Notes under the pieces: generated by a model
What the model was told of the DNA's origin: nothing
The model's database searches: none
The model's input: only the letters and a program-made list of their open reading frames with translations
From: Chrysophaeum taylorii
Taxonomy: Eukaryota > Sar > Pelagophyceae > Pelagomonadales > Pelagomonadaceae
NCBI GenBank assembly: GCA_029834535.1
Contig: JAQMWT010000331.1
Span: forward strand, 62,001 to 126,000
Reading direction: 5' to 3'
DNA length: 64,000 bases
In this document: piece by piece, positions 22,901 to 60,186 of the stretch
Position numbering within the stretch: the stretch's first letter is position 1
How the letters are laid out: each line of letters starts with the position of its first letter
Made by a program: the position numbers and the translations under genes

Positions 22901-25900
22901 TCGGGCACGGACTTGGCACGGGAGATAACGATGGAAATATTGTGGGAGAAGTGGGTGGCAGCTGCGAGGGAATGCTCGTCGATGTTGTCGGATGCAGAGT
23001 TGGTGAAAGCGATAGCGATGGAGGACTTGTTGGAGTGGTGGTTGGTGGTTGTGATGGGAGGCTCTCCAGAGTTGTCGATGGTTGGCGAATGAAAGCACCA
23101 GATGATAATACTGTTGGATTCAGAATCGGTGAGTGCGACAGCGAAGGAAGAACTGTTGAATAGGAGATGGGCCGTTGAGGTGGAATACTGGTGGGAGCTT
23201 TAGACGGACCATGCAATCCTCCACCAAACTCTGATGGTTGTGATGTTGGATCCGCAGATGGAGCAGCATCCGGCGGCAAGGTCGGAACCCGAGTGGGAAG
23301 CGACGATGCCCAGGACCCACCACCGCCTCTCGACTTTGTCGCTGACGGAGTGGCAGTTGGGACTCCAGGTTGTGGGCTCGAGGGAATAACCGTGGGCGTT
23401 ACGCTCGTTGCGCTCGAGCTCAGAGGTGTCGGATTTGTCGATGGTAACGCAACAGGAACAGACATCGGCAACGCAGATGGATAAGAGCTGGGATGCAGTG
23501 CGGACGTTGACCACGGCGACAAGTTAGTCGGGTCAGCTGAGGGAGTCGACGATGAGGTCCGAACCTCAGTAGGAAGCGATGACGGTAAAGAGCTGGGTGC
23601 GCTCGACGACATCGCCATGAGAGCGGCTGAAGGGGTAGCGCTCGATGGGCTCGAGGCCAAACTACTCGGCACGATGCTGTTAGGGAAGCTTGAAGGGCTC
23701 GCAATAGGCACTGAGCTCGCAGGGCTTAAAGGCAGGGGCGTCGGATTCGTCGTCGGTGATGAGATAGAAACTGTCGTCGGAATCAAAGTGGAATATGACA
23801 TGGGGTGCTTCGTGGGCCTCGTCAACGACTGCGACGATGAGGGTGTGCTTATTGGATCCATAGAGGGAGCGGCAGTCGGCGTAAACAATGGAGCCTTTGT
23901 GGGAAGAGATGACAGCAACGAGCTAGACATGTTTGTTCGTAACGTAGACGGAGTAGCAGACGGTGTTCCAGACGCTTGACTTAAGGGGCATACGCTCGGA
24001 ATAACGCCAGGGATTCTTGATGGACATGCTGTCGGAACACTTCTAGGGATGCTCGGGGAACTGACTAATGGCGCTAAGCTCGGCGTGCTCGCAGGCTGAG
24101 GCGACGGTTTCGTTGTAGGGACAGAAATTGGAACCGATGTCGGGATCACGGTGGTATACGAGCTAGGCTGTCTTGTAGTCGTCAATGAGGGTATAGATGA
24201 GAGAGCGCTCCTCAGATCCGTGGGTGGAGTTGCGGTCGGCTTGGGTGTCGGAGCTTTGGTGGGGAGCGATGGCGGCAATGTGCTGGAAATGCTCGTGGGC
24301 TGATTTGAGGGCGATGTGCTTGGAATGCTGCTAGGGATGCTCGAGGAACTCGCTGTTGGTACTGAGCTCGGCATACTCGCAGGCTGAGGAGACGGGTTCG
24401 TTGTAGGGAAAGGAACTGGAACTGATATCAGGATCGTCGTTGGATACGAGCTAGGCCGCATTGAGGGCGTCAACGAGGGCGGAGATGATGGCGCGCTCAT
24501 CGAATCAGTAGATGGAGTTGCGGTCGGCGTGGATGTCGGGGCTTTTGCGGGGAACGGCGCTGGCAAAGTGCTGGGAATGCTGGTTGACAAAGCTGATGGA
24601 TTCGCCGTCGAGATTCCGGTGGGCTGGTTTGAGGGCGATGCGCTCGGAATGCTGCTAGGTATGCTCGAGGAACTCCCTGTTGGCGCTGAGCTGGGCAGGC
24701 TCGCAGGCTGAGGAGACGGGTTCGTTGTAGGGAAACGAACTGGAACTGATGTCGGGATCGCCGTTGGATACGAGCTAGGCCGCATTGTGGGAATCAACGA
24801 GGGCGAAGATGATGGTGTGCGCATCGGGTCAGTAGATGGAGTCGTCGTCGGAGCCTTGGCGGGGAGCGATGACGGGAATGTGCTGGGAATGCTCGTTGAC
24901 AAAGCTGATGGATTTGCAGTCGAGATTCCGGTGGGCTGGTTTGAGGGCGATGCGCTTGGAATGCTGCTAAGGATACTCGAGGAACTTGCTGTTGGTACTG
25001 AGCTCGGCATGCTCGCAGGCTGACGAGACGGGTTCGTCGTCGGGAAAGGGATTGGAACTAATGTCGGGATCGTCGTTGGATATGAGCTACGCCGCAGTGT
25101 GGGCGTCAACGAGGGTGAAGATGATGGCGCGTGCATCGGATCAGTAAATGGAGTTACGGTCGGCGTCGAAGCTGTGGCAGGGAGTGATGACGGCAAAGTG
25201 CTGGGAATGCTCGTTGATAAAGCTGATGGATTCGCAGTCGAGATTCTTGTGGGCTGGGTCGAGGGCGATGCGCTCGGAATGCTGCTGGGGATGCTCGATG
25301 AACTCGCTGTTGGCGCTGAGCTGGGCCCGCTCGCAGGCTGAGGCGATGGGTTTGTAGTAGGGAAAGAGACTGGAACTGATGTCGGGATTGCCGTGGGATA
25401 TGAGCTAGGCCGCGTTGTGGGTGTCAACGAGGGCAAAGGTAATGGCGCGCTCGTCGGATCAGTAGAAGGACTCACGGTCGGCGTGGATGTCGGAGCTGTG
25501 GCAGGGAGCGATGACGGCAAAGTGCTGGGAATGCTCGTTGACAAAGCTGATGGATTCGCAGTCGAGATTCTTGTGGGCTGGGTCGAGGGCGATGCGCTCG
25601 GAATACTGCTAGGGATGCTTGATGAACTCGCTGTTGGCGCTGAGCTGGGCACGCTCGCAGGTTGAGGCGACGGGTTTGTTGTAGGGAAAGAGATTGGAAC
25701 TGATGTCGGGATTGCCGTGGGATACGAGCTAGGCCGCGTTGTGGGTGTCAACGAGGGCAAAGGTAATGGCGCGCTCGTCGGATCAGTAGAAGGACTCACG
25801 GTCGGCGTGGATGTCGGAGCTGTGGCAGGGAGCGATGACGGCAAAGTGCTGGGAATGCTCGTTGACAAAGCTGATGGATTCGCAGTCGAGATTCTCGTGG

Positions 25901-28900
25901 GCTGGGTCGAGGGCGATGCGCTCGGAATGCTGCTAGGGATGCTCGATAAACTCGCTGTTGGCGCTGAGCTGGGCATGCTCGCAGGCTGAGGCGATGGGTT
26001 TGTTGTAGGGAAAGAGACTGGAACTGATGTCGGGATTGCCGTGGGACACGAGCTGGGCCGCGTTGTGGGTGTCAACGAGGGCAAAGGTAATGGCGCTCTC
26101 GTCGGATCTGTCGAAAGACTCACCGTCGGCGTGGATGTCGGAGCTGTGGCAGGGAGCGATGACGGCAAAGTGCTGGGAATGCTCGTTGATAAAGCTGATG
26201 GATTTGCAGTCGAGATTCCTGTGGGCTGGGTTGAGGGCGATGCGCTCGGAATGCTGCTAGGGATACTCGATGAACTCGCTGTTGGCGCTGAGCTGGGCAC
26301 GCTCGCAGGCTGAGGCGATGGGTTTGTTGTAGGGAAAGAGACTGGAACTGATGTCGGGATTGTCGTGGGATACGAGCTAGGCCGCGTTGTGGGTGTCAAC
26401 GAGGGCAAAGGTAATGGCGCGCTCGTCGGATCAGTAAAAGGACTCACAGTCGGCGTGGATGTCGGAGCTGTGGCAGGGAGCGATGACGGCAAAGTGCTGG
26501 GAATGCTCGTTGATAAAGCTGATGGATTCGCAGTCGAGATTCTTGAGGGCTGGGTTGAGGGCGATGCGCTCGGAATGCTGCTAGGGATGCTCGATGAACT
26601 CGCTGTTGGCGCTGAGCTGGGCACGCTCGCAGGCTGAGGCGATGGGTTTGTTGTAGGGAAAGAGACTGGAACTGATGTCGGGATTGCCGTGGGATACGAG
26701 CTAGGCCGCGTTGTGGGTGTCAACGAGGGCAAAGGTAATGGCGCGCTCGTCGGATCAGTAGAAGGACTCACGGTCGGCGTGGATGTCGGAGCTGTGGCAG
26801 GGAGCGATGACGGCAAAGTGCTGGGAATGCTCGTTGACAAAGCTGATGGATTCGCAGTCGAGATTCTCGTGGGCTGGGTCGAGGGCGATGCGCTCGGAAT
26901 GCTGCTAGGGATGCTCGATAAACTCGCTGTTGGCGCTGAGCTGGGCACGCTCGCAGGCTGAGGCGATGGGTTTGTTGTAGGGAAAGAGACTGGAACTGAT
27001 GTCGGGATTGCCGTGGGACACGAGCTGGGCCGCGTTGTGGGTGTCAACGAGGGCAAAGGTAATGGCGCTCTCGTCGGATCTGTCGAAAGACTCACCGTCG
27101 GCGTGGATGTCGGAGCTGTGGCAGGGAGCGATGACGGCAAAGTGCTGGGAATGCTCGTTGATAAAGCTGATGGATTTGCAGTCGAGATTCCTGTGGGCTG
27201 GGTTGAGGGCGATGCGCTCGGAATGCTGCTAGGGATACTCGACGAACTCGCTGTTGGCGCTGAGCTGGGCACGCTCGCAGGCTGAGGCGATGGGTTTGTT
27301 GTAGGGAAAGAGACTAGAACTGATGTCGGGATTGCCGTGGGATACGAGCTGGGCCGCGTTGTGGGTGTCAACGAGGGCAAAGGTAATGGCGCTCTCGTCG
27401 GATCAGTAGAAGGACTCACGGTCGGCGTGGATGTCGGAGCTGTGGCAGGGAGCGATGACGGCAAAGTGCTGGGAATGCTCGTTGATAAAGCTGATGGATT
27501 AGCAGTCGAGATTCTTGTGGGCTGGGTCGAGGGCGATGCCCTCGGAATGCTGCTAGGGATGCTCGATGAACTCGCTGTTGGCGCTGAGCTGGGCACGCTC
27601 GCAGGCTGAGGCGATGGGTTTGTTGTAGGGAAAGAGATCGGAACTGATGTCGGGATTGCCGTGGGATACGAGCTGGGCCGCGTTGTGGGTGTCAACGAGG
27701 GCAAAGGTAATGGCGCTCTCGTCGGATCAGTAGAACGACTCACGGTCGGCGTGGATGTCGGAGCTGTGGCAGGGAGCGATGACGGCAAAGTGCTGGGAAT
27801 GCTCGTTGATAAAGCTGATGGATTCGCAGTCGAGATTCTTGTGGGCTGGGTTGAGGGCGATGCGCTCGGAATGCTGCTCGGAATGCTGCTAGGGATGCTC
27901 GATGAACTCGCTGTTGGCGCTGAGCTGGGCACGCTCGCAGGCTGAGGCGATGGGTTTGTTGTAGGGAAAGAGACTGGAACTGATGTCGGGATTGCCGTGG
28001 GACACGAGCTGGGCCGCGTTGTGGGTGTCAACGAGGGCAAAGGTAATGGCGCTCTCGTCGGATCAGTAGAAGGACTCACAGTCGGCGTGGATGTCGGAGC
28101 TGTGGCAGGGAGCGATGACGGCAAAGTGCTGGGAATGCTCGTTGATAAAGCTGATGGATTTGTGGGCTGGTTAGTGGGCGATGCGCTCGGAATGCTGCTA
28201 GGGATGCTCGATGAACTCGCTGTTGGCGCTGAGCTGGGCACGCTCGCAGGCTGAGGCGATGGGTTTGTTGTAGCGAAAGAGACTGGAACTGATGTCGGGA
28301 TTGCCGTGGGATACGAGCTGGGCCGCGTCGTGGGTGTCAACGAGGGCAAAGGTAATGGCGCTCTCGTCGGATCAGTAGAAGGACTCACGGTCGGCGTGGA
28401 TGTCGGAGCTGTGGCAGGGAGCGATGACGGCAAAGTGCTGGGAATGCTCGTTGATAACGCTGATGGATTCGCAGTCGAGATTCTTGTGGGCTGGGTTGAG
28501 GGCGATGCGCTCGGAATGCTGCTGGGGATGCTCGATGAACTCGCTGTTGGCGCTGAGCTGGGCATGCTCGCAGGCTGAGGCGATGGGTTTGTTGTAGGGA
28601 AAGAGATTGGAACTGATGTCGGGATTGCCGTGGGATACGAGCTGGGCCGCGTTGTGGGTGTCAACAAGGGCAAAGGTAATGGCGCTCTCGTCGGATCTGT
28701 CGAAAGACTCACCGTCGGCGTGGATGTCGGAGCTGTGGCAGGGAGCGATGACGGCAAAGTGCTGGGAATGCTCGTTGATAAAGCTGATGGATTCGCAGTC
28801 GAGATTCTTGTGGGCTGGGTTGAGGGCGATGCGCTCGGAATGCTGCTAGGGATGCTCGATGAGCTCGCTGTTGGCGCTGAGCTGGGCATGCTCGCAGGCT

Positions 28901-30758
28901 GAGGCGATGGGTTTGTTGTAGGGAAAGAGATTGGAACTGATGTCGGGATTGCCGTCGGATACGAGCTAGGCCGCGTTGTGGGCGTCAACGAGGCCGAAGA
29001 TGATGGTGCATTCGTCGGATCAGTAGAAGGACTCGCAGTCGGCGTTGACGTCGGAGCTTTTGTGGGAAGTGATGATGGCAAGGTGCTGGGACCGCTCGTT
29101 GGCACTGGACTCGTCGCGTTAGACGCTATAGGATCTGACATCGGTACCAGCGTGGGACTTGTGCTCGGTTGTTCTGTCGGCGCCGATGATGGCAAAGAGC
29201 TAGATGCCGACAGACAGATCGTTGGAGCCGCGCTGGGAGAGCCCAACGGCGACGTTGACGGTTGCAACGTGGGCGCGAAAGTTGGTGTGGTTGCGGGGGG
29301 AGTAGTGGGCAAATCCGATGGCGACAACGACGGTTGCAGCAAGGGCGCGAAAGTTGGTGAGATTGTGGGGCAAGTCGTGGGCAACCCCGATGGCGACATT
29401 GACGGTTGCAGCAAGGGCGCGAAAGTTGGTGAGACTGTGGGACGGGATGTCGGCGAGCGCGACGGCGACGACATAGGGGGCTGCGAGGGCGTGGAAGTTG
29501 GTGAGATTGTGGGACGGGTCGTCGGCAAGCCCGACGGCGACGGCGAAGAGAGCGCGGCGGGCGCGGGATGCGCCGTCGTGGTTTGCGGCGCAATCGACGG
29601 AGCGGACGTGGGATCGGGGAGGATCCGAAACAGGTAAGCCGCGCCTTTGTCCGTGCCGGTATGAGCATACCCCTTCGCGCCGACGACGATTGCATCGTCG
29701 TAAACAGTTACGGATTGGCCAAAATCATCGTTGTTGCCTCCATCGCTCGCGACGAGCTTGGCGACCTGAGCGTAGGTCGCTGCATCAAAAACGTAGGCCG
29801 CGCCGGCCCTGTTGCCTTGATCGTCTTCGCCAGGGGCGCCGACGACGATCGTGTCGTCAAAGATCACGACAGACGAGCCAAACTGGTCATCAGCCTCCGC
29901 GTCGCTCGCGACGAGCTTTTCGATCTGAAGATGGGACGTCGCGTTGAAGATGTATGCGGAGCCCGCGTTGGTGGACCCGTCGTTGTCGTCCCCAACGGCT
30001 CCCACGACGATCGTGTCGTCGAAGATTGCGACCGAGCGGCCGAATTCATCGTTCGCCAAGCGGTCGCTAGCCGTAAGTTTTGCCAGTTGCGTACGGGTCG
30101 TGGCGCTAAAGACGTAGGCTGCGCCGGCTTGGTTCTCGTTATCGATCCTCGCCCACTTCGCGCCCGCAACGATGTTGGCCCTCGAAATCCCCACACTTTC
30201 GCCCATGTAGTCCTGGTTGGCGCCGTCGTTCGCGACGAGCTTGGCGACCTGGACGCAGTCGCGAAAGACGTAGACAGCTCCGTCGTCGGTCGCTACATTG
30301 TCGTGTCCAGGCGAGCCGACGACGATGGTGCCCTCAAAAACCGCCACACCCCACCCAAAATAGTCGTGTGCCTCGCCGTCGCTCGCGGTCAGCTTGCATA
30401 CCTCGTCGTACGAGCTGCTGTTGAAGACGTAGACAGCCCCGGCATTCTCGTCGTCGCCGTACGCCCCGACGACGATCCTCTCCTTATAAATCGCCACCGA
30501 GTAGCCAAAACGGTCGTTCCTGCCGCCGTCGCTCGCGGTCAGCTTGGCGACCTGGCTCGTCGAATTGAACACATACGCCGCGCCACTGGCCAGCCCCAAA
30601 GGGTTTGCCTCGTGCGCGCCGGCCACAACTGTCCCTCCGTACGTCGCGACTGAGATCCCTAGCTTGTCGTTGTTTTTGGCGTCGTCTGCGGTGAGCCTGC
30701 TCACCTGCGCCACACTCGACGCCCCGACGGTCGCGACCAGCGCCACGATCATCATCAT
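15177..30758 (-). CDS. Giant REJ/polycystin-1-like multi-membrane receptor with FG-GAP head and Ser/Pro/Thr stalk
   Basis: I predict four exons on the minus strand: 20,782-30,758, 20,364-20,694, 20,082-20,300 and 15,177-19,946. Together they give 15,297 bases, exactly 5,098 codons plus stop. The start is the ATG at 30,758, followed by a hydrophobic signal peptide (MMMIVALVATVGASSVAQ). Order: seven FG-GAP repeats, a Ser/Pro/Thr-rich stalk of about 2,600 residues, SEA-like and REJ-like domains, a GPS-like box, then seven membrane segments. REJ/PKD-type receptors act at the cell surface in egg-sperm and flagellar signalling in animals and protists; the ligand here is unknown. No PLAT domain or ion-channel pore was recognised. 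The gene is bracketed by Helitron-fragment arrays, with about 70 bp between its ATG and the upstream repeats. The third intron boundary is the least certain. Confidence 0.8.
19947..20081 (-). other. Intron 3 of the receptor gene (135 bp, boundary tentative)
   Basis: Acceptor CGCACTTAG|GCCTTGGC at 19,947 is clear. The donor chosen is TTACTG|GTGCGCACG, because it joins exons 3 and 4 in phase 0 and gives DNGLL-ALASNASYVLRTT. An alternative donor cannot be excluded. Confidence 0.5.
20082..20300 (-). CDS. Exon 3: second part of the REJ-like domain
   Basis: 73 codons beginning ATSIGTYTTRLTFDLIPS and passing through QVDFLWTLFEEQ (compare the Y/F-x-W-x-L of REJ/PKD repeats). In-frame sequence continues to about 19,990, so the 3' boundary at 20,082 rests on the donor CTG|GTGCGC and the required reading phase. 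Confidence 0.6.
20301..20363 (-). other. Intron 2 of the receptor gene (63 bp)
   Basis: Donor CTTGAG|GTTCGTCACC and acceptor GCACATAG|GCTACC, phase 0. The join gives NFLE-ATSIGTYTTRLTFDL, a natural REJ strand. Confidence 0.7.
20364..20694 (-). CDS. Exon 2: first part of the REJ-like domain
   Basis: Encodes about 110 residues including VVFQGPTLISVCENYTLRAD and MEFRWSAVAASES, the pattern of PKD/REJ beta-sandwich repeats (a G/S-x-x-x-L-D-A-S-like strand, then F-x-W-x). It ends at LSLTNFLE. Confidence 0.7.
20695..20781 (-). other. Intron 1 of the receptor gene (87 bp)
   Basis: Donor GAAAG|GTGCGTCTC and acceptor TGCGCAG|GTGTGACTGC. Splicing in phase 2 restores an Arg codon and continues from CGYDE into CDCFEPVNATT. 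Without splicing the frame stops within the intron. Confidence 0.75.
20782..30758 (-). CDS. Exon 1: signal peptide, seven-bladed FG-GAP head, Ser/Pro/Thr stalk, SEA-like region
   Basis: Residues 1-18 form a signal peptide. Residues about 20-370 hold seven FG-GAP repeats of the form KLTASDG...DxFGxSVAI...IVVGAxGDD...GAAYVF, enough for a complete beta-propeller as in integrin alpha heads. Residues about 375-3000 are built of PT/PS steps (xPSxxPTxxP), containing the 108-residue repeat array. Residues about 3019-3170 look like an alpha/beta SEA-type module (inferred from pattern only). The end has paired cysteines (CNELFVF, TTCAWVN, AAECGY), usual just before REJ segments. The donor AAG|GTGCGT lies at 20,781, inside the codon for Arg. 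Confidence 0.75.
24230..29070 (-). repeat. Coding tandem array of a 324-bp (108-residue) Ser/Pro/Thr repeat, about 15 units
   Basis: The unit includes SALSTSIPSTLPSSLPATAP, TPTTRPSSYPTAIPTSVP and FPTTNPSPQPASVPSSAP in order. The period is 312-318 bp at the C-terminal-coding end and 324 bp over most of the array, with one unit 12 bp longer and one 15 bp shorter; all keep the frame. The N-terminal-side units are nearly identical. The segment 25,717-26,688 is repeated as a block at 26,689-27,660 (972 bp, three units). Likely an extended, O-glycosylated stalk. Confidence 0.9.
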
Positions 30759-44693: not shown

Positions 44694-46100
44694 AAGACGC
44701 AAACCCACGACCGATCAAGATGACGCCAATAGGTGACGCCAGCAAAGCTCGAGTGTCTCAGAAAGCAGATCAGTGAGTGGTGTCGCGATGGAGTCATCCG
44801 ACCGGCGAACTCTCCGTGGGGATTTCCTGTACTGATGCTGCCTTATCCCTTACCCTGATCGCCGACTGCGGTTGCGATGGAAGACAGTGCCTCATGAATC
44901 CTGAGCCTTGCGAGGGCATCCGCCCTCCCGGCGTTGGTGGCACCATTTCGCCTCACGGGCGGGCCGGTGGCAGCCGGAACGTCGCAGTGGGACTGGGGTA
45001 TGGCCGGGGGGCGAAGACGGAAGGTTATCGACGAGTTGGTTGTCAGTCACATCGCGGTCTCCTCGTCGTATGGCGACAAGCTTGAGGTCACTCTCCGCGC
45101 GACCGCCCTTTCGGCGCTCGACACCTCTACAGGCCCGTGTTCCGACTGGCTTCTGTCGGTCCGGATGGCTCCATGCTCGGGAGGGTCTGAAGTTAGTTAG
45201 TAGCTGCCTAAGAAGGGAGCGAGGCCGGGACGTCGAATGCTTTTCGTGCTGCCGTTGACTTGCGTCAGCTCATGATCAGCTGGTCAATGACAGTGGCCGA
45301 ATATTCGTCAAGATGATGCTTTGGCTTTTCTTGCCATGCCGCCGTTGGCGGACGTGCATTGATATTCGATGGGTTATCATAACTTACGTTTGGATGCCGC
45401 TGCTCAGGGCGACGTCCGTTACTATGGTTAGTCCACTTGGAGCCCATAGTTTTCTTGCGCTTGCCTCTAGGAGTAAAAAACAGCAGGAGCTCTCTTTTGT
45501 AAGCAGATGGCTAGCGATTTGTCCACACGGATGTATAAGGACTTGGTCGCGTTTTGTCGACGATATTATGATGGGATCGGATGAACTCCATCGACATTAC
45601 AAGTTTTGATTGAAGTGTTGTGCCATTTAGCACAGCGAGGATATAGTGGACGAACTTCGAAGTTCCCTCCACCTCATCGAGGTGAAATCGAGTTTTTGGG
45701 ACATATTTCGACTCCGGAAGGCTTGAAGCCGAATCCCAAGACGTTAGAAGCGTTGCAGCAGATGCCGATTCCCGGTACGTTGCCCATACGTCCCCGAAGA
45801 CCCATATTCGATCTTTCATTGGTATGAGCAACTATTGCCGCCGATATGTGATGAATTATTCGAAGATTGTGGAGCCGCTTAGGCGATTGTGTCTTGAAGG
45901 CGTTAAGTTTGAGTGGACGCCTGAGTGCCAAAAAACATGGGACACGATCATCGAAGCTTTGGTGGATTCTCGTGGAGTTTATCATCCTGACTACGATCTT
46001 CCTTTTCAGATCCGCTCGGATGCTTCCAAGGATGGTCTGGGTGCGTATCTTTTTCAGCTCGTGTAAATCAAGGACGAAACCGGCAAGGTGACACGAGAGG
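44694..46100 (+). pseudogene. G1 reverse transcriptase region
   Basis: The piece between the two SINE-like copies encodes ISEWCRDGVIRPANSPWGFP, the hallmark of Ty3/gypsy reverse transcriptase entry. Beyond 45,230 come [16 protein letters not shown] (the Y/F-V-D-D catalytic motif), [17 protein letters not shown] and RSDASKDGLGAYLFQL (the start of the RNase H-like part). Fossil, several breaks. Confidence 0.75.
44847..45202 (+). repeat. SINE-like element in the G1 reverse transcriptase
   Basis: About 356 bp with the same landmarks as the 44,327 copy. GCTGCCTTA at 44,837-44,845 and GCTGCCTAA at 45,203-45,211 make a short target-site duplication. It splits the reverse transcriptase motif region. 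Confidence 0.8.
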
Positions 46101-47400: not shown

Positions 47401-47715
47401 TGCAGAGCATTTAGCAAGCAGTGGTAAGTCACCTGGGAAACCATCCCGTCTCATCGTGAACGTCTGGAAGGTTAATTCGGGGAATGGAAGGTTATGTTCC
47501 CTATATCCTCAGAACCACGACAGGCGGCATCTAGAACTACACGAGAAAGGTTAAGTGTGTAGTGCTACATACCTCGGGACGCGCTAGACCATGATGATGA
47601 GCGTCGGCACAAATCAGAGGACTATTAGATTGTGTAGAAAGGGAGAAGAAAGGGCAAGGAAGAGATCACGTTCTCAACGGACGGATAAGGGTAAGAGGCA
47701 GCAGACTTCTCTGCA
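47401..47715 (-). repeat. 3' LTR of element A
   Basis: 315 bp starting TGCAGAG and ending CTCTGCA, a perfect 7-bp inverted terminal pair. The left edge interrupts the G1 integrase. Homologous to 2511-2824 and 59,907-60,186. Confidence 0.85.
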
Positions 47716-47845: not shown

Positions 47846-49393
47846 TCAAGAGTATAACAGGGTGTCTTCGGGCTTGGACTTGGTGGAGCTGAGAGTCGAC
47901 TTGGCGCTTTTGAACAGAGCATTACGAAACACAGGTACGACAGACGGTGTGTTAAAGCTATCTGAGGTGGTGGACGTTACTGGTTCGAGAGTATCGGTAT
48001 CGTCTTCGTCAGCTTCTGCTGTCAGGCGGTGAACGCCAATAGTAGACTGGTGTGGTACCATACGAAACGTGAGTGCAAGTAAAGCATTCAGTAGGGATGG
48101 CACTAGTGAGTCAAGTTGTAGGGTGTCCAGTTGGTTTTCCAAAAAGTTGGACTCAGCGAACGGATCCGAGAGGATAGAAGGGTCTTCCGATTCACATGCG
48201 AAGGGTGTGCTTTGAATACACGAGAGCAAATTATCACGCAGACGATGGAGGTGATCGTCCGGGGAGGAATGGTTGGCGGCATTACCCCTTACCCTGATCG
48301 CCGACCGCATGGTTGCGATGGAGGACGGTGCCTCATGAATCCTGAGCCTTGCGAGGGCATCCGCCTCCCGGCGTAGGTTGGCACCTATTCGCCTCTCGGG
48401 CGGGCCGGTTGGCAGCCGGACGTTCGCAGTGGGACGGGGTATGGCCGGGGGCGCAGACGGAAGGTTATCGACGATTTGGTTGGTCAGTGCACATCGCGGT
48501 TCCCTCGTCGCATGGCGACAAGCTTGATGATCACTCTCCGCCGACCCACCTTTCGGCGCCCCTCGTCTACAGGCCCGTGATTCCGGACTGGCTTCTGTCG
48601 GTCCGGCTGGCTCCATGCTCGGGAGAGGTCTGGAAGTTAGTTAGTTAGTATATGGTCATGAGTGTTAGCGTTAAGCGAGACACGACGGCGGCTGTGATCT
48701 ACACGAACAGTGTTACAAGCAACACGTGCTGATTGGCTGTAGGAGGAAAGAGCCGGATTGTGTAGGGAGGGGTAATGAAGCAATGGCTCCTGTATATCGT
48801 AAGGCAGATAGATTCTCAGCTTGCGCAGGGCTAAGTTTACCTTGCGAAATATAGGCGAAGACAGAGTATCTAGTGTCGCCTTTTCTCAGAGCCTGACAGC
48901 ATCAGGCGAGGCAGAAGACAGCAGGTTGTTTGCGAGTAAAGACATCTTCTTCGTCAGCTTCTGTGATGAGGTGGAGAACACAAAGCAGCAGTTGTGGTAC
49001 CATACGAGTGAGGTCTTCAGTACCATGCTTTGAAGTAGGTGGTTGATTTCGGTTTAGGAGTGCAAGGATCTTGATTCGGCGAAGTAAGGTGGGACCGACC
49101 ATTACACCAAGAGTGGTGGTGAACGTCCGGGAGATGAATGAACGGGCGATCGTCCTGTTGGTTGGATGGAGAGCGCTACCGGCTTGAGGTGCGTCGGCCA
49201 GGCGTGCGCGAGGAAGAAGGTGCCCTGAGCATCACGGCTTGCAGTAGAGGGAAAGTCCGCGCTGTGAAATCGGTGACGGTTCTGAGCGGGTTGGGCAGGC
49301 GACGGACAGGCGATGTTGTGGAACTCGTTTGTTGCGACGCTTTGCAAGACTTTCCAGAAGTCGTGTGCGCAGTGGCAGTTTCAACGAGGCATG
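47846..49393 (-). other. Element A 3' internal region, partly duplicated
   Basis: A frame at 47,846-48,260 encodes FRMVPHQSTIGVHRLTAEADEDD; a related stretch at 48,902-49,060 encodes TRMVPQLLLCVLHLITEADEED. This points to an old local duplication. Between them sits a SINE-like element (48,286-48,649). No known domain. Confidence 0.4.
48286..48649 (+). repeat. SINE-like element in the 3' region of A
   Basis: About 364 bp from CCCTTACCCTGATCGCC to TTAGTTAGTTAG, same landmarks as the copies in G1. No clear target duplication was found. Confidence 0.8.
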
Positions 49394-50551
49394 TCAACAC
49401 CTTGTGCAAGTGGGTGATTTTCGTGTTGCAGGAAGTCTTGATGTTCTGCCGGAGTATGTGGGAGAGATCCAGAAGTGATGGCGTTTGTCTGAGGATGATA
49501 CGTAGTCGTCAAGGTGTTGTGCCCACGATTGGATAACAGTATGAATCACATGGTGGTATTTGGTGGGCTTGAACATAGCCTGAGTTTTACGAGCTTGTGT
49601 TCGCTCGAGCGTTACAAGAAAGTTAAGATGCTCCAGGTGCATCTGAGTAATAAGCCGAAGATCCAGTGCCAATGGCAGTTGAGTGGTGGAATCTGTGGCT
49701 GCATCGGTTACTGATAAGACTAAATGAGCAAGTGACGAATATTGCGTTAGACTGCTAGTCAAGAGAGTATGTAGCTCCTTTGGCAAATGATACGTGCGTA
49801 TGATGGTTGCGCGTATATGACCAGCTGAGCACCCATCACAGGAGGGTTGGAAGGAAGTAGCATTACGTGCACATACGTTAGGTTGTATGGGCGCCTGATC
49901 GGTGTTGTGACAAGCACAACAAATGTTAGTGGTGATAGTTGAGATGGGGATGTGACCATTCTTCTTGTGGTCATCTGTGTTGAGGTGACTCAGCACTTCA
50001 GTGGGGAGTAAGAAATGTAGGCTGCCCCAAATCGTTGAGGCATTGCGTACAGTAGGATGACAGGATGAAACGTTCACGTTTGGGGCCTCTGTAGCAGCCA
50101 ATAGAAGTAATAGCAGGAGCAGCTTCCCAAAATGTAGTAATGGGTAGGCGCATGGATATGAATGTCGTTAGTTCCACAAACAGTAAAGAGTCAGCAGATT
50201 CATATATCGAGTTGAGTGCCGTAGAGATTTCCGCTCGCATAACAGAAGAGAGAAAGGGCGTAGCAGGAGTACGGAAGCTCTCAGAAGAGAGAATCCTCGT
50301 TCAATCAGGGCAAAATCCATGTTGAGGCCATCCTGGAGTGTTAGGGATTGTAGTAAAACAGGTTCAGCTGGTGTCGGTGAGACAGTAGCAGCCTGGGAGG
50401 TAGTAGGAGTGACAGTGGTTATGGGTTGTCGCTTTTGAACAACATGGGAGAAGGCTCGGCCGTGGAGAGCGAGCGTGGAATTGTCCTTCGAACGACTGGA
50501 GATGCCACGGCCACGGCCACGGGAGTGCCAAGAAAAAGACATGAGCGACAC
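49394..50551 (-). pseudogene. Unassigned coding region downstream of RNase H in element A
   Basis: Minus-strand frames 49,394-50,101 (235 residues) and 50,168-50,551. The first contains a cysteine cluster, CCACHNTDQ...CARNATSFQPSCDGC, that could bind zinc, followed by a helical stretch. No signal peptide or membrane segment is visible, so an envelope gene is not supported despite the position. Function unknown. Confidence 0.4.
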
Positions 50552-50646: not shown

Positions 50647-52425
50647 TCAATCCTGTAAAGGATTGTCGTCAGAGGCATGATGCATACCGAGTAGAGAACG
50701 AAAAGTGGAGAACTCAGCAGCAAGTGGCTTTGTAAAACCATCCGCCACGTTCAGCTTGCCGGGAACATGATGGACTCGTATTTTCTGTAGCGAGATGTAC
50801 TCACGGATTTTAAACCATCTGGTCGACAGTGCCTTGGATCGAGAGGACCCATCTGGGTTATTAGAGGTGTGAACAGCGGCAGCATTGTCAGACAAGAGAG
50901 GTAGGCTTCTGATGAAGCGCATATCTTCAGCAATTGGGTTGTCATTGTCATCGAAGTCAACAGGGTCAGCGGTGTTCTCACCATTAGCATTGTTGACGTA
51001 GAAGGTGGGGTTGACGACAAAGGAGAGTTCCAACAGCAGCTTGCGTAGCCAAACAGCTTCATCAGCACAAATACTGAGGGCAATCAACTCAGCTTCGTGA
51101 GTTGAGCAGGAGACAATCGGTTGAAGTTTGCTTTTCCAACCAATAAGGCAGTTGAAAAGATAGAAGACAAACCCGGTGGTAGATTTCCTATCTTCCTGTG
51201 CTAAGGAAGGGGCATTGTCAGCGTCAACCATGGCAACTAAGGGGTCAAACTGTCCAGTAGATACATCCTGCGGTTGGTAGTCGACCACAGTGGATAGATC
51301 AATTCGATTAGCGGAGACAGTGCGAAGGTGAGCTTCAATGGCATTACCTTTAGGATGGAACCAGAGGCGAAGTGAGCGGTTTTCCGGCTTCTTGAGGTAG
51401 CGAAGCAAATGCTCTAGCATTTGGACGTGAACATACGTGGGTGCATGCATACCACGCGAACATCTGCCCAAGGCTTGCGAGAAGTCAGGTCTGCAGGCAA
51501 CTTGCATGAACACCAGCTTGCCAAGGAGGGTGGCAAAGTGCGAATTGATGTACAACTCTGTTTCAGAGCTGGGAGTGCCATCTTTATACTTGAAGGACGA
51601 TGACATAGGATATTTAAGCGGGGTCAGTTGCTGCAAGACTGGGTGATCAGCGAAGAGTTCATCCAGCTTGGCTTGCACATCCAGAGAAATGGAGCCGTCA
51701 GATGTGCGACACACACGCATGCCTAGGAGGGTATGGACAGGTTCAAACTGCTCTACAGCATACCGTTTGTGGAGGGCATCCTGTAATTCAGTACGAAGAG
51801 GGTCGTCATTGGACACAATAACAATGTCGTCTACAGACAGACTGCATACGACGAACTTAGCATGTGCGGATACTCGAGCATATAGGCAAGAGTCCGAATG
51901 CAGGCGTTTGTAGCCAAGGCTACGGAAGAAGCCGTCTATCTCTTTGTTCCAAAGGGATGGTGATTGCCGAAGTCCATAAAGTGACTTCAGCAGTTTCGGT
52001 AGACGTCGGCCCTTGTACTTAGCGTCATCGGGGTCGATAAGCTTGATGCCGTCTGGTAACTGAACATAGACATTGGCATCGATGTCAGACTGAACGAAGG
52101 CGTTCGGGACGTCTGCATGGTAGACAGGCAATTGCTTGTATGCTGCAATAGCTAGTAGTACCCGGATTGCGGTCATGGTGGCCATGGGGCTGAAGGTACC
52201 AAAGAAATCGGCGCCAAGAGATGCTAGGAAGCCACGTAGTACGAGGCGAGCCTTGTGCTTAACGTATTTGCCTGCAGAGTCTGTTTTAATCTTCAGCACC
52301 ATCTTGCTGTCAATAGGACGAGAGACACCGTCGGGTAAGGAAAGTTTGAAGCAGCCAAAGCGGATAATGTCGTGGAGTTCCTTGGCGATGGCCTTGAGGT
52401 AGGCGTGCCTGTTTTCAGGCGACAA
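50647..52425 (-). CDS. Element A reverse transcriptase and RNase H
   Basis: A 592-residue frame of copia type (RVT_2 family). Seen in order: KARLVLRGF, HADVPNAFVQSDI (first catalytic Asp region), KSLYGLRQSPSLWNKEI, CSLSVDDIVIVSND (the x-V-D-D box), then RNase H with DADNAPSLAQEDRKSTTGF, STHEAELIALS, LSDNAAAVH and IRVHHVPGKLNVADGFTKPL, the usual end of copia RNase H. Copies RNA of the element into DNA when active. The longest continuous frame of the element. Confidence 0.85.
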   Translation of the reverse strand: MSPENRHAYLKAIAKELHDIIRFGCFKLSLPDGVSRPIDSKMVLKIKTDSAGKYVKHKARLVLRGFLASLGADFFGTFSPMATMTAIRVLLAIAAYKQLPVYHADVPNAFVQSDIDANVYVQLPDGIKLIDPDDAKYKGRRLPKLLKSLYGLRQSPSLWNKEIDGFFRSLGYKRLHSDSCLYARVSAHAKFVVCSLSVDDIVIVSNDDPLRTELQDALHKRYAVEQFEPVHTLLGMRVCRTSDGSISLDVQAKLDELFADHPVLQQLTPLKYPMSSSFKYKDGTPSSETELYINSHFATLLGKLVFMQVACRPDFSQALGRCSRGMHAPTYVHVQMLEHLLRYLKKPENRSLRLWFHPKGNAIEAHLRTVSANRIDLSTVVDYQPQDVSTGQFDPLVAMVDADNAPSLAQEDRKSTTGFVFYLFNCLIGWKSKLQPIVSCSTHEAELIALSICADEAVWLRKLLLELSFVVNPTFYVNNANGENTADPVDFDDNDNPIAEDMRFIRSLPLLSDNAAAVHTSNNPDGSSRSKALSTRWFKIREYISLQKIRVHHVPGKLNVADGFTKPLAAEFSTFRSLLGMHHASDDNPLQD

Positions 52426-52489: not shown

Positions 52490-53269
52490 TCAGGACCAAC
52501 AGTGGCTGGTGAAATTATAGTTTAGCGACGTTGCGGTCGAGGCAGTGTGCGCAACTTCGGGATAAGCGGAAACAGCGTCAGTAGGAGTAGTAGGGGCAGA
52601 TTCCAGTTGGATATGGATAGTAGGGTCGGTACGTAAGACCTGGGTGATAAACTCTGTAGAGACCAGAAGGTATTCCTCCAAGTCAGCCAGAGATGCAGAA
52701 GTAGCGCCAAACTCGGATGAGTTGTGATCAATAAAGCTGGTCGGCGCCAGGTACGTAAGTGCATATTGTAAGGAAGAAGTGCCGAAGGCAGCAGCGTGTT
52801 CAGTGAACGCAGATAAAAGGGGCTGAGGAATAGGGCACGCAGGTGAACCATCAGCAGTTAAAAAGGTTGCAGCTGGGATGCTGGATGCGCACTTGGCGTG
52901 GGCGAAGTAACCATCGACGTGCGGGTAGCGGGCAAGTAAGTCAGTGCGCAACGGGAGAAGAAGACGAGCTAACAACGCATGTTCCCCCTCTGAGCAGATA
53001 GCAGACCAGAGGATACCACCACGGAGATGAAGGGCGGAGAGGGCGGGAGACTTGAACGTAAGAAAGTGGTGGCGAAGATCCCAGCGGAAATCGGCGAGCT
53101 TGCCACCAGCGGCTTTGTAAGCACCAATAGTAGACGCTTGTAACCGGGCTCGGATAGTTTTCATAGAAGTGGCCTTGCGAGTGTTAGGCTGTTTGGAACC
53201 TGGGACAAGAATGAGGTCATCTTGTGCAAAAAGGTCTTTGTAAGAAGGAAGCAAGGGCGGCGGTGACAT
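52490..53269 (-). CDS. Element A unassigned module between integrase and reverse transcriptase
   Basis: A 259-residue frame with Pro-rich start (MSPPPLLPSYKDLF) and no motif I recognise. In copia elements this stretch is the variable integrase C-terminal extension. It ends with TATSLNY, one of the repeated junction peptides. Confidence 0.5.
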   Translation of the reverse strand: MSPPPLLPSYKDLFAQDDLILVPGSKQPNTRKATSMKTIRARLQASTIGAYKAAGGKLADFRWDLRHHFLTFKSPALSALHLRGGILWSAICSEGEHALLARLLLPLRTDLLARYPHVDGYFAHAKCASSIPAATFLTADGSPACPIPQPLLSAFTEHAAAFGTSSLQYALTYLAPTSFIDHNSSEFGATSASLADLEEYLLVSTEFITQVLRTDPTIHIQLESAPTTPTDAVSAYPEVAHTASTATSLNYNFTSHCWS

Positions 53270-53341: not shown

Positions 53342-54579
53342 TCAAGGAGGTGGGGAGTGCCCCCTCTGAGGATGAGGAGTCCTTGTCCCCCTCTGAATGA
53401 CATGGTCTTGGATAGTGGTGTGGGGTGTGAGCGAGAAAGGCGCGGAAGGAGCGTGTGGCGGAGGAGCTAGTTCAGGATCAGGAGTAGGATGCTGCAACAT
53501 GTAGAGGAATTGCAGCTTGGACGAAACACGAATTTGTCCGTTTTCAGGGTTGAGGACGACGTCAGCGAGATGGTCGACGCGTGGGGAGACGAGCGGGTTT
53601 TGCGCGTTGGCGCAACAGAGATACAGATATTTGCGGCGGCACGGTTCCCACTTGTGGTGTTCATGGGGCTCCAATAGGAGGTAACATTCAGCGCCAAAAA
53701 TCTTGAGCATATCGTGTTGGGGAGTGCTGAGTTGGTTGTAGAGTAGCTGTTGCGGACTCAGAATAGCATGATGAATGCGCTCGAGCGTGGCGTTCGGGAG
53801 AAGGTTGTAGCTTTGAACGGTGTGTATCACCGCCCATGGGAACATGATAGCGGGTTCCACGATCTTGGCGCCACGATAGTGAGCATTAAGGAGAGAACGA
53901 AGGCGAGTTGAGGAGGCGGAGGCGATGAAACCGATGGCAGACTCAACTTCAAAGTTAAAGTGGTGCATGTACGGCGGGAAGGCAATGAGTTGAATGCCCT
54001 TATCGACGCGGTACGGGGAGGTAATGTGCTGGCTAAAGTAGGGCTTGAATGCATCGGAGTAGAGGGTGCGCATGTGCACGTTGAGTTGTGTACGACAGAA
54101 GTCATACACAAAATCCAGAGCTTGAGTGAACTCCGTGGCGTTGGTGGTGCGTGTAAAGTACACCAAGAGAAATTTCGAAATGAGTTCCTTGAAGACGATG
54201 ATATGTGTGAAGCCTCCCCATTCGGATGGGATGGTCACATAGCCGCCGTCGCACGCCCAGACTTCGCCGGCTTTGTGAGTTTGCTCAAAAGAAGGCTTGG
54301 TCGCATTGAAATGCTTGTGCGGGTGGCGCTTGTTGTGTGCGATGCAGTCGGTGCATAAGTCGCGATATGGTATGTCAGAAGCAGAGAATCCAGGGCGAGC
54401 AAGTACGTTGGGGGCCTTGGCAGCGACGTTGTCGGGGCAGTGATGCACCCGGTGAAAGCGATTGGCACGTTCTTTGGCATTGAGATATTCGGTGGATCCG
54501 TGTGCGAGGACTTACGAGGAATTGGATGAGCGGGAATGTGCCGTTTGCGCCGAACATCGAACTTGAGTTCGGTGTCCAA
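53342..54579 (-). CDS. Element A integrase
   Basis: Zinc-binding region with H...CTDCIAHNKRHPHKH, then the DDE core: GEVWACDGGY (first Asp), TLYSDAFKPYF (second Asp) and MHHFNFEVESAIGFI (Glu), followed by ECYLLLEPHEHHKWEP and the copia-type C-terminal domain. Inserts the cDNA into the genome when active. Confidence 0.7.
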
Positions 54580-54645: not shown

Positions 54646-56603
54646 TCACGAGTAGCGAGAGTATCTTCGTAGGACGAAGATATATAGTTTAACGACATTT
54701 CGGTCAAGCAGTTGCTGGAAATAGACATCATAAAAGATTGTGCCAAAGACAAGGTATCTGTGCTGCACGTGGTGGAGGTCAACGGTCATGAAATTGGATA
54801 CATAGGATTTCTTCGTCACGGCAGCAGTATGTTGGAAGGTAGGGTCCAACATAAGGGATTTAATATCGGCGACGATGAGCGAAAGGTGCTTGTACAGAGT
54901 GCTGTACGTACCGGCAGGCAGAGCATTGCTGAGCATGTCACAGCAAAGGTCATGGCGTAGAGACAATAGGCAAGATTCCTGTTGTTTGGTGTGGTTGTTA
55001 GCACGAATCAACTCCGGTCGAGTGGGGTAACGTAATTTCCCGTTGCGAGGGTCGAGTAAAATCATATTGGCATACCCTCGGACGGTTGGCAATGGAGCAA
55101 GCACTGAGTGGATTTTAGAGCCGAGCTTGCGGTCACTTCCACGAAGGTACACTATATAGCGACTATGAGATAGGTGATGATCTTCCAGGGCAAAAAGAGA
55201 ATCCTTGTAATCGAAAGAGTTGTCGGTGGCCTTGTAGGTAAGGCAGCCAGGCATCACGAGAGAGCATCTGGACAAGAGTTTTAGTATGGCGGTGCCATAG
55301 GTGGTAGCGGAGCCAACTTGGGGAAGGGCTTGGACTATCCACACGTAACCTATAAACGGCTCCAGATATATGGACCTGTCCCGGTCGCGGGGGATGTCGG
55401 AAGCAGTGAACGTATGCGTGCTTCCAAAGGCGTTGATGGGGGTCTTTTGGTTGGTGGTGGCGTTCTCTATGGTGAGGTTGCCGTCGGAATGGTGGCCACC
55501 AGTTAAGAAGTAGGAGTTGTGTGATGTTGATGAGGTTGTAAATAATAACCTGTGTGACGGTTGGTTAGTTTCCAAAACGGTTATGTAATAGGACACAGGA
55601 GTGGGTGAGTTAGCAAGTAAGCTTGCGAACACGTTATAGAGGATTGTAAAAACCTTGACGTGTATAGGATGTGTTGCATTGGGTAATGGCTCCATAGAGG
55701 AGCGTTTAAAGCACAACTGATGATAAGTACACTCGGATTGAACAGAGTGAGTACGTTGCTCGTGAGCCTGTTGTGAGTGAAGGCGAAGCAGTAACATATT
55801 GAGGGATTCGAGGTCTGCCATAGTAAGCTGAGCAGAACCTGTGCGAGAGTAAGGTGCAAACGTTTTAGGAACAGGGATATATGCAGGATCGGGGAACACC
55901 CGGATCCAGTCTTTGGATACGTGGTTAGGTAGCCAAAGGCGCTCGGGGATAGCGTGTAGATCATCCACGATCTTTAGGAGGGGGCATGGATGGAGGATGG
56001 GCCACGATGATAGTTTAATTGGCCCAGTAGAATACCTGCGTGCAATGCATACCCATCTTTCTCTAGATTGGTAGTCGCCACCGAGGTAGGTCGGGAACCT
56101 ATCAACAACATCGACACAGTAATCAAGTGTAGTATGGATAAGGTTGGCCACTGTGATGTGGTCTTGATGACAGTACTTATGCGGAGGCGTCATCTCAGCC
56201 AGTAGTACCAAGGGCTGGAGTAGCTTGATGACAGACAGCATGCTGTCGAAAAGAGAATCGTCCAGCAGGCTGTGTAAGTCTTCCGTCTTTGCTGTTCTAG
56301 TAAACTCCTGTTTGTGCAGGGAGGAGTGATCTCAATTATATCACAATAGAATGTGCGCCTTTCCTCTGGTGAGATTAGGTGAAGATGGTTAATAAAGGCG
56401 GGGAGAGATTCAAATAATAGTACAGTAGGAAAACGGTGGCGTAACATACGAACAAGCGTATCATCAGACTCAACAACAACTTTTACATTGATATTTAAGC
56501 CTAAGTCATTAGTGGCTTGAGACAGGAACGCCGGAGTTGACAAACCAGAACAAAGTAACATGACAGAGGGTTTGCGGAGATTGGACTCTTGTGAGAGAAA
56601 CAC
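54646..56603 (-). pseudogene. C5-cytosine DNA methyltransferase-like region of element A
   Basis: Frames 56,190-56,603 and 54,646-56,241. In order: VMLLCSGLSTPAFLSQ (motif I), VKVVVESDD (motif II), CDIIEITPPCTNRS (motif IV with the catalytic P-P-C), LLAEMTPPHK (motif VI position), GGDYQSRERWVCIARRY (motif VIII), a recognition-domain stretch ending LAPLPTVRGYAN, LRYPTRPELIRA (motif IX) and MLSNALPAGTYSTLYKHL (motif X, G/S-N-A-V/L-P). This is the full motif order of a DNMT/Dcm-type enzyme. It may modify the element's own or host DNA; that role is inference. Regarded as a fossil. Confidence 0.75.
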
Positions 56604-56618: not shown

Positions 56619-58859
56619 TCAAGTTAATGGCTGCGTATTTTGCTGAACAAATTTGTTCTGTTTCCGAAGATTGAGAACCAAAGGGCGAATCCACGGGCGA
56701 TCTGGTAAAACTCTTTGGAGTAGGTAGTTGTAGTATGCCAGTAGATCCCTGTTTTCATGGTATCGCTTGAGGGGAAATGCGAGAGAGCGAAGTTCCAGCC
56801 GCTTGTCGCGCGCGATGTTGTAAGTGAGACAAGGGAGAGCAGGTAAATTAGCTGCTACATAATGTATGGGTATACGTACATCTTTGTCTATGCGGCTCGT
56901 GACAGCGCTGAGCTTTGGCTCAGCTCGATCATTGAACACAGTGGTCAGGTTCGTCTGGTTCCACTCGAGCATGCTCAGGATAGCGAGATGTCGGTCATGC
57001 ACTGGCTGAAGACATAAAGCGAAGTCGATCTTAACATAGCCAACTTGTGGATGATCTGGTAGGGGAATAACGATGTTGCGTGTTAACATCATGTGTGATG
57101 CCCGTTGTTGTCCTGTTGCCGTCTGAATAACAATCGGCGCGTATTTGGAGTCCAATGGAATTATATGATTGGGTATTGCGAAATCGTAGGTGGACATCAA
57201 TGAGATGGTAGCACAAGAGTCAAAATATAGAAAAGAGCAATGTGGAGGGACACTGTTTACCTTCATGTAGTTGGTGAGGAAGGCGTTTTCCGAATGTGGG
57301 CAAGTAGTGGAGAGGCTGGCTGTGAAGAAGTTCTTCAGCAATAACAGATTCGTTGGAATAATGATCGGTTGAACAGGTGGTGATGGTTCGTCAGCCTCAT
57401 CAGCCATGCCGTGCTTTTCATCAAATGACGATAGCGAAGTATGATCGGCATCCCTTTTGGTTTCGGCTTGTGATGGTAGGTTGAGGGCAGATTGGACCTG
57501 TGAAGATAGCGAGGACAATAATGCTGGTGGTAAAGCCGAGATGGCGGAAGCGGTAAAGAGGTTAGGCACAGTATTGGAAGGATTACCCTGTGTGTTTGTA
57601 GTAGGAGGAGTTGTTGTTGGGGTGGGAGCAGTAACAACAGTATGGTGTTGTGGCTCCACGTAGTTTAACGACTTTTCGGTCGAGGATAGATGAACGTCTA
57701 CATCATAAATGATGTCTTCTGCAAACATGAGCTGTTCGTTTAGACGAAGTAAACTACTGTTGTCCTCAGTAGATGTCGTTGACAGAATGTCAGCTGATTG
57801 TAATAGAGTCTCAAATAACTTGTTGATATTCTGTTGTAGCTGAGCCGTGGTATCATTATCTGTCACATGCTTCGTGAGTTCGCTACACTGTTCTCGCAGG
57901 GTGTTTAAGGTGTGGTTTGTTCGATCTAATAATTTCATGTTAGACCGAGAGGACCTGTCAAAAGTGCGGGGGTAAATTGGACGGTCATGGGACTGTCCGG
58001 CAGTTTTCTTGGTGACGTAAGAATCACCAGGACGATAATACGATAAATCGCTGCGAGAGAAAGGCTGGCGAGCATCATTAGAGTTACGCAAGCGTCTAGC
58101 ATTAAACGTGGAAGATGTACCAGGTTGGGACGAAGTGATGAAGGCGAGTGTGTTAGCAGTTTGAGTCAGACTTTTGTCTGATGAGTCCAAAGTGTTTGTA
58201 AGTAGTAACTTTGGCTTTGGTTGAGATGATAAACCTTCGACATAGGGTTGCCAAGAAACAGGGCGTTCTAAGCGTCTTTTGTTCGACCCATTTGATACTA
58301 CATTGTAAAGGTCTAATGCGTATTCTAAAATGTAGCTAGGGTTGGTAGGGTGACACAATCGTTCAGCTTCTGGCACAGGCCGAGATGAAGATCGGGTTTC
58401 GTACATATAACACCAATCTACCCAACCACGATCGTAACGGTTGTTGCTGGTATTATCGGCATAATGCCGATGTATCTCTTCATAGATTTTTCTACAAAGA
58501 GTGCCAAAGTCGAATTGAAGGTCAGTCTCTTCCTGGTTAAGTTGGTAAGAGATTTGCCTAAATGCTAGGACAGCTTCGATAAATACATGGACATACCAGT
58601 TAGGATTATAAACAACAGAGTTAAATTGCTGTTTCAAATAGGACACATCAGTAGTCGTAACAGACTCGTAGTGACTAAAGGCGATGAGCATAATAGCTCG
58701 AGCCTTGTTGGGTAAATAACTTTTGTTGTATACCTCATTGATGGCGGGCCAGGCCGCAAGTGCCGGTTTTCCAACACTTTCAAGATTGAAGTAAGTATGC
58801 AAGAATGTAGCGTACGTGTTCTGATAAGTGTGCCAGTCAGCGGCAGTTAACGAAAACAT
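56619..58859 (-). CDS. Element A gag C-part and aspartic-protease-like region
   Basis: A 746-residue frame. The first ~330 residues are helical, matching A1 and B gag (WYVHVFIEAVLAF, WCYMYETRSS). A linker with Ser/Thr/Pro runs follows. At about residues 545-565 CSFLYFDSCATISLMS resembles the D-S-G-A loop of retropepsins, and HPQVGYVKIDFALCL follows as in B. The junction peptide STEKSLNY lies at about residue 395, between gag and protease. Confidence 0.6.
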   Translation of the reverse strand: MFSLTAADWHTYQNTYATFLHTYFNLESVGKPALAAWPAINEVYNKSYLPNKARAIMLIAFSHYESVTTTDVSYLKQQFNSVVYNPNWYVHVFIEAVLAFRQISYQLNQEETDLQFDFGTLCRKIYEEIHRHYADNTSNNRYDRGWVDWCYMYETRSSSRPVPEAERLCHPTNPSYILEYALDLYNVVSNGSNKRRLERPVSWQPYVEGLSSQPKPKLLLTNTLDSSDKSLTQTANTLAFITSSQPGTSSTFNARRLRNSNDARQPFSRSDLSYYRPGDSYVTKKTAGQSHDRPIYPRTFDRSSRSNMKLLDRTNHTLNTLREQCSELTKHVTDNDTTAQLQQNINKLFETLLQSADILSTTSTEDNSSLLRLNEQLMFAEDIIYDVDVHLSSTEKSLNYVEPQHHTVVTAPTPTTTPPTTNTQGNPSNTVPNLFTASAISALPPALLSSLSSQVQSALNLPSQAETKRDADHTSLSSFDEKHGMADEADEPSPPVQPIIIPTNLLLLKNFFTASLSTTCPHSENAFLTNYMKVNSVPPHCSFLYFDSCATISLMSTYDFAIPNHIIPLDSKYAPIVIQTATGQQRASHMMLTRNIVIPLPDHPQVGYVKIDFALCLQPVHDRHLAILSMLEWNQTNLTTVFNDRAEPKLSAVTSRIDKDVRIPIHYVAANLPALPCLTYNIARDKRLELRSLAFPLKRYHENRDLLAYYNYLLQRVLPDRPWIRPLVLNLRKQNKFVQQNTQPLT

Positions 58860-59482
58860 GGTAACGGGGCACGAACACGGGTGTCGAAAGCTAGTGCCTT
58901 CGGGTGCGCGCGATTTAAGATTCGTTCCTCTTCTAAGAAACGAGCATTGATTTCAGGACGTAATGCCTTGACTTCATAGTCGTAACAGACAGTAGCTAGC
59001 TGAGCTACTTCTGCATCAGGTAAGTGGGGGAAAGCTTCGTTGGTGAAATGCCATTCCTGATACTCAGGGGGCAATTCATCAACAGCTAAACGGAGATCAG
59101 CAGCCCTATCGGTCTTCCATTCCAGGAAAACGCGATCGAGAATTTGATTCCGGAGGATCTCGTAGTCCTTGCATGACCGAGTATATGCTTCGTACGAGTC
59201 GTACTCGAGGAAAGCATCGGCATGACTGGACCGTAACAATTGCTTAATATGCTTGATTTGCAAGGATACCTTGCAGGTCTGAAGCTGAAATCGATTTCCA
59301 TCGTTAAGAAACTCAACTACAGGAGCTTCGAGCTTCAATATATCCGCACCTGTGATCGCCTTGGGTGCGGCTCGTGCTGCGTGTTCTGCCATAGCAGTTG
59401 ACGGGGAACCTGTGGGTTCAGTCACGCAGTTGACACTGTCTAGACATTCTAAGGGGGTCTGTCTATCGGTGTCTATGTACAC
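58847..59482 (-). CDS. Element A N-terminal gag-like frame
   Basis: A 211-residue frame starting MYIDTDRQTPLECLD. It includes ILKLEAPVVEFLNDGNRFQL and an R/K-rich helix, almost identical to 1447-2079 in A1, and its end overlaps the following frame by 13 bases. First coding sequence after the primer-binding site. Confidence 0.55.
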   Translation of the reverse strand: MYIDTDRQTPLECLDSVNCVTEPTGSPSTAMAEHAARAAPKAITGADILKLEAPVVEFLNDGNRFQLQTCKVSLQIKHIKQLLRSSHADAFLEYDSYEAYTRSCKDYEILRNQILDRVFLEWKTDRAADLRLAVDELPPEYQEWHFTNEAFPHLPDAEVAQLATVCYDYEVKALRPEINARFLEEERILNRAHPKALAFDTRVRAPLPCFR

Positions 59483-59906: not shown

Positions 59907-60186
59907 TGCAGAGCATTTAGCAAGCAGTGGTAAGTCACCTGGGAAACCATCCCGTCTCATCATGAACGTCTGGAAGTATTTAATTCGGGGAATGAATTGT
60001 ATGTTCCCTATATCCTCAGAACACGACAGGCGGCATCTAGAACTACACGAGAAAGGTAAAGTGTATAGTGCTACATACCTCGGGACGCGCTAGACCATGA
60101 TGATGAGCGTAGGCACAAATCAGAGGACTATTTGATATTTCGATAGAAGAGGAAGAAAGAAGGGTAAGGAAGAGAACGATCACGGA
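59907..60186 (-). repeat. 5' LTR of element A (outer end altered)
   Basis: Starts TGCAGAG at the primer-binding site and follows the other LTR copies to about 60,186. The next 100 bp (60,187-60,290) do not match them and show no gene. Confidence 0.75.

Follow-up and report, generated by a model that had tools for sequence, protein, structure and literature searches.

The element and its organization

A stretch of 64,000 nucleotides of the Chrysophaeum taylorii genome (contig JAQMWT010000331.1, positions 62,001 to 126,000; the window) carries a long terminal repeat (LTR) retrotransposon of the Ty1/copia class, here designated family A, whose Pol region includes a domain resembling the C5-cytosine DNA methyltransferases (C5-MTases). 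As the original prediction had proposed, the methyltransferase (MTase) domain, at 54646-56603 on the minus strand, was found between the protease, recognized by the motif YFDSCAT, and the integrase, which is followed by the RVT_2 reverse transcriptase (RT). The position of the integrase ahead of RVT_2 is that expected for the Ty1/copia class. The two LTRs (Table 1), each about 270 bp, were 92% identical across 271 columns with gaps counted, and their ends, read by eye, were of the TG...CA type (TGATC...CTCTGCA).

The rve and SH3_retrovirus matches to the integrase were weaker than the Pfam curated cut-offs, and no Pfam protease matched the gag-protease open reading frame (ORF). The window copy is broken, since the frame changes within the MTase and again ahead of the integrase. 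In a related element (L027) both parts of gag matched in a single frame, and in the family A copies L036 and L040 a single open frame, of 1116 and 1115 amino acids, respectively, ran from the gag-protease stop as far as the retrieved sequence extended. No target-site duplication was found at the window element, where the flanking 5-mers were ATCCG and ACTAT; such an absence is usual in a copy that is old or rearranged.

Table 1. Features of the family A element and a second MTase copy in the window
Feature	Position	Strand	Basis or remarks
LTR element, Ty1/copia (family A)	about 12.8 kb	minus	LTRs and ORFs; window copy also listed as L029
5' LTR	59907-60182	minus	match to 3' LTR; outer end by eye
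gag, 5' part	58847-59482	minus	ORF; frame differs from gag-protease ORF in window copy
gag-protease ORF	56619-58859	minus	protease motif YFDSCAT, by eye
UGA (then CUA) between gag-protease and MTase	56619-56621	minus	possible readthrough site
MTase piece 1	56190-56603	minus	motif I (degenerate), II, III region, IV (TPPC; Cys 56316-56318)
MTase piece 2, other frame	54646-56241	minus	VI Glu 56194-56196; VIII QSRER about 56056-56070
MTase piece 2, C-terminal motifs	IX about 54991-55032; X about 54910-54933	minus	after a long region
Integrase	53342-54448	minus	Pfam: rve E 0.0015, SH3_retrovirus E 4.8e-5
Linker, integrase to RT	52490-53269	minus	ORF; no Pfam match
RT and RNase H region	50647-52425	minus	RVT_2 E 2.5e-42; RNase H by position and eye
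Third ORF, remains, RT to 3' LTR	49394-50551	minus	154 genome matches
3' LTR	47401-47668	minus	LTR pair, spacing 12506
Family C MTase copy	2807-4403	minus	tblastn with family C MTase, 89-91% identity over most of it

Three copia families carry the domain

The original prediction described one MTase-bearing copia element. The element is real, and its domain was found in three copia families, A, B and C, at more than 200 listed places in the genome. There were at least 86 rows of genome matches for A, 79 for C and 88 for B, some of them fragments of one copy. The order protease (PR)-MTase-integrase (INT)-RT was common to all three families. Three RT loci, chosen from the RVT_2 matches for their differing match ranges, were checked upstream and all three carried the MTase, two being of family C (C483 and C338) and one of family B (C58). 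Among the best 150 RT matches, at least 46 were preceded on their own strand by an A or C MTase at a distance of 0.5-8 kb, mostly 2.2-2.5 kb, and none had a listed A or C MTase on the wrong side. For this pairing 80 A rows (of 86) and 71 C rows (of 79) were used, the remainder being short second fragments and a split copy on C32; with B not included and the A and C match lists incomplete, the count of 46 is a lower bound. A host gene or contamination as the origin of the domain was rejected because it accompanies integrase and RT in many copies. On contigs C10 and C297 the matches to A and B occurred as twin rows of equal score, perhaps the two haplotypes of one region.

Identity of the domain

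Motifs were assigned with the names and patterns that we take to be those of the C5-MTases. The predicted series was found in order for motifs II, IV, VI, VIII, IX and X, with IX and X downstream of the target-recognition region and alignable across A, B and C. The exception was motif I. The S-adenosylmethionine (AdoMet) motif I of C5-MTases has the consensus FxGxG; the corresponding sequence was LLCSG[LM]S in A and C and IIAGGLH in B, so that one glycine is kept and the second is absent.

The proposed check against the Pfam profile PF00145 failed for the window copy, neither MTase piece of which matched at E ≤ 1, and succeeded among its relatives. The lack of a profile match was what the original prediction had named as its refutation; it holds for this copy taken alone and is overturned by the relatives, and the degenerate motif I is the weak point of the assignment. 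Family A copy L040 likewise had no PF00145 match, while L036 matched at E 0.075, weaker than the cut-off, and also matched PHROG 116, a DNA methyltransferase, at E 0.0076. In family B, the domain at the same place in Pol matched PF00145 with E values down to 1.1e-10 (2.9e-8 and 1.1e-7 in two long ORFs), TIGR00675 more weakly than its cut-off, and PHROG profiles. Family A is counted as a relative of PF00145 because it can be aligned with family B, which matches the profile. The Smith-Waterman score of the A and B domains was 86, compared with 42.1 ± 6.2 for shuffled sequences (n = 500), none of which reached 86, and the alignment paired, unprompted, the motif IV Cys, VI Glu, VIII Arg, IX Glu and X Asn.

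A chance likeness of the family A domain to C5-MTases would accord with the lack of a Pfam match in the window copy and with the outcome of a search of the PDB with an A/C profile, which found no MTase. It was rejected by the alignment score against the 500 shuffles and is very improbable. Judged from its sequence, the family A domain is very likely a C5-MTase homologue, and the earlier claim of such a homologue within the Pol of a Ty1/copia element is borne out by the homology through family B, the position of the domain, and its RVT_2 and integrase context.

The A, B and C domains are too diverged for assignment to a DNMT class. No public protein relative was kept among the approximately 7,700-8,000 candidates scored per search, in which shared 5-residue words were required, and a scan of viral contigs confirmed none of 20 pattern matches. 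Structure models of the domain were poor, with a predicted local distance difference test score (pLDDT) of 33.5 and 34.8.

The identity between A and C was 48% for the MTase and 54% for the integrase, and between A and B 24% and 27%, respectively. The parallel drop favours a single capture in a common ancestor. A C5-MTase homologue would thus have joined Pol in the ancestor of A, B and C and been inherited since then between protease and integrase. Separate captures by A/C and by B at the same place could explain why the motifs are worded differently (TPPC/AEM/QSRER in A and C, TLPC/VEN/ISKTR in B) and why the hhalign probability was low. However, the domains occupy the same place in Pol, are colinear through motif X, lack the same motif I glycine and have identities that parallel those of the integrase, making two captures distinctly improbable. 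The MTase is an old component common to three copia families, not one recent capture.

Conservation and catalytic potential

The motif IV Cys, VI Glu, VIII Arg, IX Glu and X Asn were present in 12 of 12 family A copies. In family B, the first three were found in all 20 copies that cover them (21 were examined, one being uncovered there), the IX Glu in 15 of 16 and the X Asn in 15 of 17 covering copies. An alignment of ten A, B and C sequences had 21 invariant columns, including the P-C, E and R of motifs IV, VI and VIII; one C sequence was partial, so late columns could not be counted as invariant. The median ratio of nonsynonymous to synonymous substitution rates (dN/dS), taken from open copies only and therefore biased toward low values, was 0.30 for the A MTase (45 pairs of 10 open copies; range 0.12-0.81) and 0.25 for the A integrase (34 pairs). 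For family B the medians were 0.14 for the MTase (6 pairs, 4 copies), 0.11 for the integrase (10 pairs) and 0.18 for the RT (6 pairs), and one pair of C MTases gave 0.07. The MTase is under purifying selection, close to the integrase and RT medians.

The fold may have been kept and catalysis lost, the domain serving instead in nucleic-acid binding, in the choice of integration site or as a structural part of Pol. This would agree with the degeneration of motif I, which A, B and C share, and with the pattern of CpG decay in 12 family A copies. Transitions occurred at 0.0278 at CpG versus 0.0228 at other C/G positions and transversions at 0.0224 versus 0.0175; because transversions rise along with transitions, there is no clear footprint of CpG methylation. 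On the other hand, the few columns (21) that are invariant across the three families include those of the catalytic P-C, E and R, and the dN/dS resembles that of the integrase and RT encoded alongside, which makes loss of catalysis unlikely. On balance the MTase is probably active, at somewhat better than an even chance.

Expression and possible targets

In family A, 11 of 12 copies have a UGA at the junction of gag-protease and MTase, and in 9 of 12 CUA comes next; in L039 the UGA was removed by a 3-base deletion. Both family C copies that were inspected have a UGA at the same place. UGA-CUA is among the contexts in which termination is known to be leaky. Family B is arranged differently: its pol overlaps gag in the -1 frame, at a CTTTTTC that 19 of 20 loci (L009-L028) retain. 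In A and C, the MTase would be made by ribosomes that pass the in-frame UGA ending gag-protease, and in B a -1 frameshift would give the same outcome. Given the UGA in A and C and the -1 overlap in B, the MTase is predicted to be made only upon recoding, together with integrase and RT.

Produced in small amounts alongside these enzymes, the MTase could be packaged in the particle and act on the element's own nucleic acid, on the new complementary DNA (cDNA) first, and new copies would be methylated at or soon after integration. We regard the whole chain, up to an MTase that is active and modifies the nucleic acid of its own element, as evenly poised. The likeliest target is cDNA, and the view that cDNA or DNA is the main one is tentative, a little short of an even chance.

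An active MTase might instead have an RNA substrate, such as the element RNA, the primer tRNA or another. DNMT2 structures headed the Foldseek ranking obtained with the family B model (pLDDT 34.8, template modelling score (TM) 0.17), and RNA methylation was raised by the authors of PMC5890265 for the case of the long interspersed nuclear element (LINE). A ranking from so poor a model weighs little, with DNMT1 and other AdoMet enzymes close behind, and the data at hand indicate no particular RNA; an RNA substrate is improbable.

Host methyltransferases

The genome gave 57 PF00145 matches, of which 2 were host genes, 20 were in fetched B loci, 19 overlapped B protein matches, 3 were within 1 kb of such matches and 13 were a weak remainder. 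One host gene (L001) is DNMT2-like, matching the human DNMT2 structure 1g55 at E 3.9e-39. The other (L002) is DNMT5-like, matching at E 2.6e-143 structure 7r76, named Rad8, which we take to be the Cryptococcus Dnmt5. No other host C5-MTase was recognized among the 57 matches, and the 13 weak ones make a further host gene possible. The host had no match to DNMT1-RFD, nor did the controls, so this negative is uninformative. A light-harvesting gene of the chlorophyll a/c type adjoins the DNMT2-like gene, consistent with an alga whose plastid is of the red lineage.

The host DNMT5-like enzyme could maintain a mark written by the elements. In Cryptococcus, DNMT5 is a maintenance enzyme without de novo activity, its substrate preferences elsewhere being described as undetermined (PMC9246332). 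The source of de novo methylation in such lineages is consequently a testable question. One conceivable answer, that cytosines are methylated de novo by the copia elements and the host only maintains the marks through the DNMT5-like enzyme, is doubtful; if true, the methylation pattern of the genome would be seeded by retrotransposons and copied by the host.

Relation to known systems

Retrotransposons bearing DNMTs were described in 2018 in LINE and DIRS elements of Symbiodinium and a Gypsy element of Klebsormidium, under purifying selection; the SymbioDIRS enzymes methylated CG in yeast, and assays of the LINE and Gypsy enzymes gave no clear result (PMC5890265). The features of those elements, an MTase in the coding region, many copies and purifying selection, were all found here. 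That paper reports Copia of Symbiodinium to be without a DNMT, which upholds the suggestion that a copia element is a separate case. PMC12344493 refers to the 2018 streptophyte and dinoflagellate cases as LTR Copia and DIRS, whereas the 2018 paper says Gypsy; it names Copia as a DNMT3 carrier, and the part available describes no element like the present one. A DNMT survey that includes pelagophytes (PMC9998398) mentions the 2018 paper, in the portion available, in its reference list only. Beyond the PMC5890265 cases and the PMC12344493 mention, no Copia-borne DNMT was found in a search of a literature collection without preprints and most subscription papers.

KnitGypsy-Dnmt3 of Klebsormidium nitens is, like the present element, an LTR element with a C5-MTase in Pol under purifying selection, but it has a Gypsy Pol, a DNMT3 origin and a charophyte host, in contrast to the Copia order PR-MTase-INT-RT in three families of one genome (PMC5890265). 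SymbioDIRS-Dnmt3 and SymbioLINE-Dnmt of Symbiodinium share with it the many DNMT-bearing copies and host enzymes that include DNMT5; they belong to the DIRS and LINE classes, and SymbioDIRS is active in yeast, while the copia MTase is known from its sequence (PMC5890265).

With the stand-alone C5-MTases (the M.HhaI, DNMT1 and DNMT2 families) the copia domain shares the motif order, the IV Cys, VI Glu and VIII Arg, and motifs IX and X at the C-terminal end; it differs in its degenerate motif I, the long region between VIII and IX, and the absence of a close relative in the sequence searches. DNMT-bearing retroelements were already known as a kind; new, as far as the searches reach, are the class of the element, how deep the association goes, the degree of divergence and the setting in a host with a DNMT5-like enzyme. 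The range of element classes that bear a cytosine methyltransferase is extended to Copia, in a probable red-lineage alga. If the enzyme is active, the elements would write the mark by which hosts often silence them.

Other features of the window

The third ORF of family A, which had no Pfam match, is open over about 665 amino acids in one copy (L044:9-2006) and has several Cys-rich stretches. A 99-bp repeat (86%) occurs at 44870-44968 and at 48311-48409, and because the second copy lies inside the element, close to the 3' end, a nested insertion is suggested. On the minus strand, 20730-30758 holds a single unbroken ORF of 3342 amino acids.
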